This document shows, piece by piece, positions 1 to 54,760 of a stretch of DNA of 54,760 nucleotides. A program made the position numbers and the translations under genes. The notes beneath the pieces were generated by a model. That model ran no database searches. It saw only the letters and a list, made by a program, of their open reading frames with translations, and was not told the origin of the DNA. The DNA is from Rhodopila globiformis (GTDB lineage Bacteria > Pseudomonadota > Alphaproteobacteria > Acetobacterales > Acetobacteraceae): the NCBI RefSeq assembly GCF_002937115.1, contig NZ_NHRY01000229.1, positions 1 through 54,760 on the forward strand, given 5' to 3'. Within the stretch, counting starts at the first letter, position 1. Each line of letters begins with the position of its first letter.

Positions 1-2
1 CC

Positions 3-176
3 AATCGCCGCTCGCCGCGGACCTACGACCGCGACCTCTACAAGGCGCGCCATCTGATCGAAAATTTCTTCGCCAGGCTCAAGCAGTTCCGTGCCATCGC
101 AACCCGCTATGACAAGACTGCCCGCAACTTCCTCGCCGCGGTCCACCTCGCCGCCGCCGTCGTTTGGCTTAATTGA
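3..176 (+). CDS. IS5-family transposase, C-terminal part (cut by window edge)
   Basis: The left edge opens inside a reading frame whose last 57 codons are visible, ending in TGA at 174-176. The peptide contains RHLIENFFARLKQFRAIATR followed by YDKTARNFLAAVHLAA, the conserved tail (catalytic Glu of the DDE triad in the IEN block) of IS5-family transposases, probably of the two-frame IS427 type. Start, upstream catalytic Asp residues and left terminal repeat lie outside the window, so whether it is intact cannot be judged. No right-end terminal repeat was confidently found after the stop. Family assignment is from motif recognition. Confidence 0.75.
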   Translation, partial: NRRSPRTYDRDLYKARHLIENFFARLKQFRAIATRYDKTARNFLAAVHLAAAVVWLN

Positions 177-7315: not shown

Positions 7316-7556
7316 CCCCATTGGCGTTAAAATAGCGTGGCGGCGGCACGATGCTTGCCATTCCGTCATGGCCCGGCTTGTCCGGGCCACCTATTCCAGC
7401 ACTGTGCCGCGACAGGTGGCCCGGACAAGCCGGGCCATGACGAGGAGGCAACAGCCAGCCCTATTTTAACGCCCATGGGGCGAAGGCCCACCATCCGCGC
7501 CTTTTGCCGATATTGACACCGTAAGGCGTGGATGGCCGGCCTTCGCTGGTCATGAC
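7316..7556. repeat. Nested REP-like palindromes between TPR and transporter genes
   Basis: The gap 7230-7580 is nearly filled by palindromes. The inner one is a perfect 29-bp inverted repeat (7364-7392 and 7414-7442, arms starting CGTCATGGCCCGGCTTGTCC) with a 21-nt loop. It is enclosed by an outer 20-bp pair with one mismatch (7316-7335 and 7461-7480, GGCGTTAAAATAG). A third imperfect palindrome, GCGAAGGCCCACCATCC and complement, follows at about 7480-7550. The gap lies between two minus-strand genes and could act as a transcription or mRNA-end structure. Confidence 0.7.
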
Positions 7557-32869: not shown

Positions 32870-32882
32870 CCGCGCCGGGTCA

Positions 32883-32921
32883 CGTCCCCCCACCGGGACG
32901 CTTCTCTTCTGAAAGGGGGAG
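32883..32921 (+). ncRNA. serC leader RNA motif, candidate
   Basis: Two adjacent hairpins precede serC. The first is CGTCCC/GGGACG (32883-32888 and 32895-32900). The second pairs the CTTCTCTT region with AAGGGGG around loop CTGA (about 32901-32921), placing the ribosome site AAGGGGGAG inside the stem. The alphaproteobacterial serC motif described from comparative genomics has two hairpins directly upstream of serC, and this matches in position and in the CTTCTGAAAGG-like segment. It probably controls translation initiation; a ligand is not known. Confidence 0.5.
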
Positions 32922-32927
32922 CTGCAT

Positions 32928-54211: not shown

Positions 54212-54318
54212 CATTTGCGTTCATCTGCGGTTCCTGAATCAGCGTGGCGGCGGGAGGGATGTTCCGACGCCTGCGTGCTGCTCCAAAGGAGAAATGGAAC
54301 CGCAGATGAACGCAAATG
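54212..54318. repeat. Inverted element with TTTGCGTTCA arms
   Basis: Perfect 23-bp arms (beginning CATTTGCGTTCATCTGCGGT) at 54212-54234 and 54296-54318 surround a 61-bp core. The left arm is preceded by another 10-bp unit, so the pattern TTTGCGTTCA TTTGCGTTCA TCTGCGGTTC is a short tandem array. Its design (arms of short units around a GC-rich core) parallels the CTCTGCG elements. Confidence 0.7.
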
Positions 54319-54607
54319 CAGCAGGGCTGTTGCCGCAGCGGGGGCGCACGTCGTCCGACAGGGCATTGTCGTGGACCTTTTCAGCACGGTTCCGGTTGGA
54401 TTGCGGGACCGTGAAACGCCTCACCCGACCACCCCGGAACCCGACAACAGCCTTCGCATTTTGGCATTCGTGGCCTGGGCATTGGCTTGATCGAGCGGCG
54501 GACGCAAGGCCGAAACGGTGGCCATTTGACTGTGGACGGGCGTTTCATTCGAAACGTTTCTGTCCAGGCCCGCCACCCGCCGTCACAAATCAGTCGCAAG
54601 TAAATAT

Positions 54608-54626
54608 CCCCCGGCAGAGCCGGGGG
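54608..54626. terminator. Hairpin followed by CTTTAT, at start of hairpin array
   Basis: CCCCCGGC (54608-54615), loop AGA, GCCGGGGG (54619-54626), then CTTTATAG. On the plus strand it resembles a weak intrinsic terminator; it may equally be the first member of the array. Confidence 0.45.
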
Positions 54627-54638
54627 CTTTATAGTGTT

Positions 54639-54753
54639 GGCCGCTCAAAGCGGCCGGGCGGGTCGCTGACGCGGCCCGTTGAGTGTGAGCCGCTCAAAGC
54701 GGCAAGCGGGACCGCTAACGCGGTCCCGGGTTCAGTTGGCCACTAAAGTGGCC
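54639..54753. repeat. Tandem array of small hairpins, truncated by window edge
   Basis: Five consecutive stem-loops: GGCCGCT-CAA-AGCGGCC (54639-54655), CGGGTCGC-TGAC-GCGGCCCG (54659-54678), GCCGCT-CAA-AGCGGC (54689-54703), CGGGACCGC-TAAC-GCGGTCCCG (54707-54728) and GGCCACT-AA-AGTGGCC (54738-54753). They repeat as hairpin pairs with a period of about 49 bp. Stems differ between repeats by paired changes (for example G-C to A-T between first and fifth), so base pairing rather than sequence seems conserved. No coding frame explains this. The array continues to the window end. Confidence 0.75.
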
Positions 54754-54760
54754 GGTTCAG

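Follow-up and report, generated by a model that had tools for sequence, protein, structure and literature searches.

A multi-hairpin array at a contig end of Rhodopila globiformis as the likely right end of an IS200-group insertion sequence

The hairpin array at the right edge of a Rhodopila globiformis contig almost certainly belongs to a single-gene element of the IS200 group (IS200/IS605 family), of which it forms the right end, the 3' non-coding part. We make this assignment because the boundary of the array is fixed in many copies, because the beginning of tnpA is present in left ends of the same element, and because relatives encode a Y1 transposase beside the same tail. The stretch of DNA that was analysed, hereafter the window, comprises 54,760 nucleotides of contig NZ_NHRY01000229.1. 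An earlier note on the window had offered several readings of the array, among them an IS200-like single-stranded DNA (ssDNA) processing substrate whose gene lies beyond the edge. This reading agrees with our results, with the tnpA start in the left ends and the Y1 transposase in complete relatives; the same note's undescribed system finds no support as far as its kind is concerned, the array belonging to an IS200/IS605-family element. An odd-looking array is in this way assigned to a kind of mobile element that is well understood. The kind of insertion sequence (IS) is known, and the elaborated structured 3' tail is what appears to be undescribed.

When the last 161 bp of the window (54600 onwards) are folded, six strong stem-loops form between 54608 and 54753 (Table 1), the number proposed in the earlier note. 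The plus strand of the array, folded as RNA, has a z-score of -6.7, and 0 of 200 shuffles fold equally well; z-scores for the other foldings (minus strand as RNA, either strand as DNA) are -7.3 to -8.0. The repeated unit is a 45-bp H2–H3 segment at 54633-54677 and 54682-54726, the two copies being 49 bp apart and 78% identical. The outermost hairpin, H1, and the innermost, H4, are each present once and lie outside this unit. The six-hairpin form of the R. globiformis element is the product of a duplication of H2–H3. The earlier description of two hairpins per ~49-bp unit is thus right for the H2–H3 duplicate and wrong for the single H1 and H4, and the exchange of GGCCGCT/AGCGGCC for GGCCACT/AGTGGCC that it reported sets H2 against H4, which by their position in relatives are different hairpins. 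Between H3 and H3', outward from the loop, one pair is changed on both sides (G-C to A-T) and another on one side only (T-G to C-G), and H3' is longer by one pair. Covariation inside this one molecule, also claimed earlier, is thin, with a single two-sided change between H3 and H3', and is strong across relatives.

Table 1. Features of the array in the window, with the usual form of each hairpin in relatives
Feature	Position	Strand	Sequence	Usual form in relatives	Basis and remarks
Right-end part of IS200/IS605-family element (assignment almost certain)	54600..54760	-			26 copies with one sharp start; runs past window end
Right-end tip, presumed cleavage site	54600..54603	- (tnpA-sense)	TTAC		Boundary in 26/26 copies and guide covariation in relatives; cleavage by analogy with family
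Presumed guide tetranucleotide	54627..54630	-	AAAG		5' of H1 foot; role by analogy with family (PMC6006769)
H1, terminal right-end hairpin	54608..54626		CCCCCGGC-AGA-GCCGGGGG	CCCCCGGC-AAA-GCCGGGGG	Fold; same place in relatives; same stem in left end
H2, first copy	54639..54655		GGCCGCT-CAA-AGCGGCC	AGCCGCT-CAA-AGCGGCT	Fold, motif scan
H3, first copy	54659..54678		CGGGTCGC-TGAC-GCGGCCCG	CGGGGTCGC-TAAC-GCGGCCCCG	Fold, motif scan; T-G pair in stem on plus strand
H2', second copy	54689..54703		GCCGCT-CAA-AGCGGC		Repeat comparison, fold, motif scan
H3', second copy	54707..54728		CGGGACCGC-TAAC-GCGGTCCCG		Repeat comparison, fold, motif scan
H4	54738..54753		GGCCAC-TAAA-GTGGCC	GCCACC-loop-GGTGGC	Fold; hairpin adjoining tnpA stop codon in relatives

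The 161-bp right end occurs in 26 copies in the R. globiformis genome, at 99–100% identity over all 161 bp (161 of 161 bases for the window copy). Every copy sits at a contig end and runs to that end at the same base, and the sequence before GTAAATATCC is unrelated among all 26, giving a sharp start equivalent to 54600. The element therefore begins at this boundary and not at 54608, where the earlier note had placed the beginning of the array. The same genome also contains one divergent copy, in contig C269, and three short related elements. The right-end contigs stop 127 bp (161 - 34) past an A/G variant, which is at element position 34 and lies closer to the end than any other variant; 127 is a usual assembler word length. 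This distance fits a collapse of the common middle of the element, which the assembly probably made at word length 127; the window ends at 54760 because the assembly breaks within a multicopy repeat. A protein search and a Pfam model gave 0 matches to tnpA in the R. globiformis assembly (the Pfam search matched 10 of 14 control genomes), and the element middle, with most of tnpA, is absent from it. If complete, the tnpA of the window copy would read on the minus strand towards 54600. The opposite edge of the window (1-175) codes for the C-terminus of a DDE transposase (DDE_Tnp_1_2, E 2.6e-9), so the contig is seemingly bounded by insertion sequences at both ends. A 23-bp perfect inverted repeat (54212-54234 and 54296-54318, 61 bp apart) lies about 280 bp from the IS end.

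The H1 palindrome also marks further contig ends of R. globiformis, which are left ends of the same element. Twenty-three of these are full, each at a contig end and cut at one base, and one more is truncated and lies beside unrelated DNA. The palindrome reads CCCCGGC-AGA-GCCGGGG in the 23 left ends; a subterminal hairpin is thus present at both ends of the element. On the tnpA strand the left ends begin with CTAACG and continue with one hairpin, a leader and the codons for MDEFESLNHTKW, the first 12 codons of the element's own tnpA being present. The leader folds into a long hairpin that takes in the start codon. A complete Acidovorax element starts with MQDYQSLSHTKWDCK.

Matches in eight plasmid records led to elements in Achromobacter, Acidovorax and Rhizobium. 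The complete relatives contain a 143-aa tnpA annotated as IS200/IS605, which lies alone between the ends, with no tnpB, and is oriented towards the tail, its stop codon adjoining the innermost hairpin; their TnpA proteins match Pfam Y1_Tnp in three of three cases. A scan of species genomes gave at least 80 loci from Proteobacteria, Acidobacteria and other phyla. One of them, L123, labelled Acetobacteraceae, has a complete tnpA and six hairpins, and its TnpA matches ISHp608 and other solved Y1 transposase structures. DNA matches were found in 6 of 248 other Acetobacteraceae genomes, three of which (G087, G152 and G231) had short matches of 30–35 bases without an element and were dropped; close TnpA proteins are present in 4 of 397 genomes of the host's family. 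L189 combines tnpA with four hairpins. In L188, from the same genus, tnpA and the left end are present, the tail is absent and the tnpA frame continues into other DNA; loss of the tail is thus possible. The same family also contains a decayed relative (L079), with an H1–H4-like tail and a tnpA remnant broken by inserted DNA.

TnpA of the IS200/IS605 family binds a subterminal hairpin at each end, and the cut is located via a guide tetranucleotide at the hairpin foot (PMC6006769). By analogy, the TnpA of this element would grip H1 and the left-end hairpin as ssDNA on the tnpA-sense strand and cut at sites read by guide tetranucleotides, and the element would leave as a single strand to be pasted 3' of a short target; H1, as the outermost hairpin, is probably the one gripped at the right end. 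The fourth letters of guide and tip in relatives are G with C in 44 right ends and A with T in 5, with 3 misfits, of 52 counted. Of the misfits, L135 lacks a clear tip; a literal reading of L153, a row excluded manually, would add a fourth. The count derives from 59 tabulated right ends, of which L107 and L136 were left out (57) and L117, L153, L172, L175 and L177 skipped (52); for L159 and L171, the guide frame was assigned manually. For the most part, guide and tip thus covary across relatives, in at least two events since four of the five A-T rows look related.

At the left end, this IS has the guide/target pair GAGT/CTAA and its miniature copy has GAGA/CTAT, both of which fit the expected pairing. 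We do not propose a simple left-end guide rule for the relatives, several of which do not follow it. The miniature copy in contig C254 interrupts a dispersed repeat, the uninterrupted form of which reads GTGCTGGAATAGGTGGCCCGG (or ACAG). Comparison of this one copy with the uninterrupted repeat places the insertion 3' of CTAT, with no target duplication and no terminal inverted repeats.

From the tip to the stop codon, the usual order of the tail in relatives is H1, H2, H3 and H4, the inner hairpins H2–H4 being located between the tnpA stop codon and H1. For analysis of the tail, 12 near-identical loci (11 from Acidovorax temperans and one from Achromobacter) of the at least 80 were set aside and 68 kept. 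A motif scan covered 63 of these, with L112, L121, L126, L138 and L164 excluded because the right end is missing or cut. It found an H2-type hairpin in 62 of 63 right ends and a TNAC-looped H3 in 52 of 63; the scan gives three loci an extra H2 and misses H3 hairpins with other loops. A greedy hairpin count over the 68 loci gave four hairpins in 41, three in 15, and five, two and one in one locus each, with 9 lacking H1; this method merges neighbours and therefore undercounts (five for the window), and a shuffled 100-base control averaged 1.1 hairpins. Shorter tails consist of H1 and H4 (L130) or lack H3 (L161, L172), and the tail of L078, at a contig end, is longer than usual. Among nine more distant plasmid elements, one cyanobacterial, one betaproteobacterial and one enterobacterial element have H1, H2-like and H4-like hairpins, L182 has only H1 and H2, and L181 has no such tail. 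The other four, IS200-type elements from Streptococcus, Collinsella, Tetragenococcus and Paenibacillus (L184–L187; Bacillota/Actinomycetota) have several hairpins of other sequences after tnpA, and some of these retain a CTAAAG- or CTAAAGA-type loop resembling that of H4.

The alignment of the tail left out 13 of the 68 loci: L123 (six hairpins), L130, L161 and L172 (fewer), L128, L169 and L173 (divergent), L148 (near L147), and L112, L121, L126, L138 and L164 (right end absent or cut). Removal of the duplicate L107 and of L141, L150, L154, L155 and L158, which failed the H1 search, left 49 rows, and L072 and L073 brought the total to 51. Across these 51 distinct right ends in the four-hairpin layout, 96.7% of cells pair, and two-sided changes affect 14 of 30 pairs and 45 cells. 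None of 500 shuffles reaches 14 pairs or 45 cells and 2 of 500 reach the pair-type number, figures that are not a probability because related rows are not independent. When partners are slid by 1–3 columns, just 2–5 pairs change on both sides. The result applies to the four-hairpin layout, for which the rows were selected. On this comparison, a conserved multi-hairpin tail with covarying stems is a feature of right ends in this IS200 subgroup. The folded nucleic acid under selection that the earlier note had supposed is borne out by the covariation, and the homologues, in which it had named uncorrelated stem changes as contrary evidence, favour structure.

A covariance model built without the window sequence scores the window at 96.6 bits. 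Run on 289 genomes of the class, the model matched 6 besides R. globiformis itself at E <=1e-4. L192 has a tnpA nearby, no tnpA lies within the stretch examined around L193, L194, L198 and L199, and the weakest matches (L195–L197) resemble ordinary terminators; a domesticated copy of the tail without the IS was sought among these matches, and none of them provided a case. Rfam contains no family that covers the array at its curated cut-off, and relaxed thresholds gave sub-threshold, weak matches alone. One of these, Ysr202, matched H1 with its 3' end at 18.6 bits against a cut-off of 315; it was not repeated by Rfam on three related loci, nothing bearing on it was found in the literature, and it was dropped. 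Elsewhere in the window, a serC leader (RF00517) at 32873-32925 scores 42.4 bits, above its curated cut-off.

Four miniature derivatives (L042, L043, L044 and L075), roughly 190 bp or less, bear on the role of the inner hairpins. Three are in the R. globiformis genome, two of them identical and at different places, and one is on a Rhodanobacter plasmid. All four retain H1 and the left-end hairpin together with a hairpin of the H2 type; H3 and H4 are absent, as is tnpA in a tblastn search. Since the miniatures lack H3 and H4, movement probably does not require these two hairpins in cis, and their position directly behind the stop codon points to an influence on tnpA expression. We propose, tentatively, that H2–H4 form a structured tail of the tnpA transcript region that would act mainly on expression, either through protection or termination of the tnpA mRNA or through a block to antisense transcription entering from outside. 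That the inner hairpins act on tnpA expression is quite possible, and the explanation as a whole, an IS200-group right end with H1 gripped by TnpA and inner hairpins acting on expression, strikes us as rather probable.

The inner hairpins could instead work as ssDNA, offering extra docking or spacing with which TnpA would locate the right end, or extrude it, on the lagging-strand template. Folded as DNA, both strands give strong structures. The H3 loop reads GTNA on the tnpA-sense strand, and GTTA DNA loops can be stable. The miniatures retain an H2-type hairpin beside H1, and TnpA of the IS200/IS605 family reads hairpins as ssDNA (PMC7290912, PMC6006769). Nevertheless, H3 and H4 are missing from the three miniatures here and from the Rhodanobacter one, and the central pair of H3 would be an A-C mismatch on the tnpA-sense strand in 30 of 50 rows; we regard a role as ssDNA as unlikely. 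In the same 30 rows this pair is T-G on the plus strand, as would suit a discrete structured RNA made from that (anti-tnpA) strand, which could lower TnpA expression or act on host RNAs in a role like that of art200. Read on the plus strand, 52 of 52 H3 loops have the form TNAC (39 TAAC, 8 TGAC, 3 TTAC and 2 TCAC), or U-N-A-C as RNA; loops of the U(A/C)AC kind take GNRA-like folds (PMC12550061), and an antisense transcript is made by IS200 (PMC12594629). Outside the H3 central pair, however, strand bias is absent, with 7 G-U against 5 A-C cells (9 against 16 when two outer, poorly aligned columns are included), the central pair itself is A-G in 6 rows, and art200, as described, is located on the 5' side of tnpA and divergent to it. 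As to the folding strand, a single pair and the loop of H3 favour plus, the rest being undecided, and we consider such an RNA improbable. Equally doubtful is the broader proposal that in several bacterial phyla the right ends of IS200-group elements encode a so far unrecognised structured RNA, antisense to tnpA and with UNAC-capped hairpins; if it were true, such an RNA would control transposase expression or host genes, and hairpin number would shift via unit duplication and loss.

The array is palindromic, G+C-rich and present in many copies, as might be expected of REP-like repeats or of a structured-RNA array without any insertion sequence. We give this reading very little credence, given a boundary that is the same in every one of the 26 copies, the tnpA codons in the matching left ends and the complete elements in relatives. 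Membership of the REP/TnpA-REP (RAYT) group was likewise rejected: the foot is AAAG and not GTAG or GTGG, and the copies are whole element ends with a fixed boundary and not dispersed single palindromes. A REP-like sequence is found elsewhere in the window, at 7364-7442, where two facing copies of GTGGCCCGGACAAGCCGGGCCATGACG form part of a very abundant dispersed palindromic repeat; a neighbouring stretch occurs at 272 places in the genome at <=2 mismatches (reversed control, 0).

Among known elements, ISMex34 (IS200/IS605) of Methylorubrum extorquens AM1 plasmid p2META1 resembles the IS200-group element described here in its H1 and in having a multi-hairpin tail, which scores 92.5 bits with the tail model. 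Its tnpA is of the 143-aa type and 80% identical to the Achromobacter one; its tail has four hairpins as opposed to six, and the hairpin sequences differ. IS608/ISHp608 and ISDra2 carry tnpB as well, and we know of no such hairpin tail after their tnpA. The right-end pair here, AAAG/TTAC, is also the left-end pair of IS608. Both elements share end hairpins and foot guide and tip tetranucleotides with the present one (PMC6006769), and a Y1 HUH transposase with its complete relatives.

Salmonella IS200 has a single tnpA gene, like the complete relatives, with a folded leader before it, as here; its TnpA is kept low by an inverted repeat in the 5' UTR together with the antisense RNA art200 (PMC12594629). 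Compared by description only, it differs in that its described regulatory structures (art200, 5'tnpA sRNA) are at the 5' side; a multi-hairpin 3' tail is not mentioned in the accessible part of that description (PMC12594629). We found no description of such a tail in the literature on IS200 ends, as represented by the accessible parts of open-licence papers. The nearest precedent found is the right end of the Halanaerobium hydrogeniformans IS605, which also contains more than one potential hairpin (PMC7290912). There, three weak, partly exclusive structures follow tnpB (PMC7290912), whereas the hairpins described here are separate, strong and placed after tnpA.
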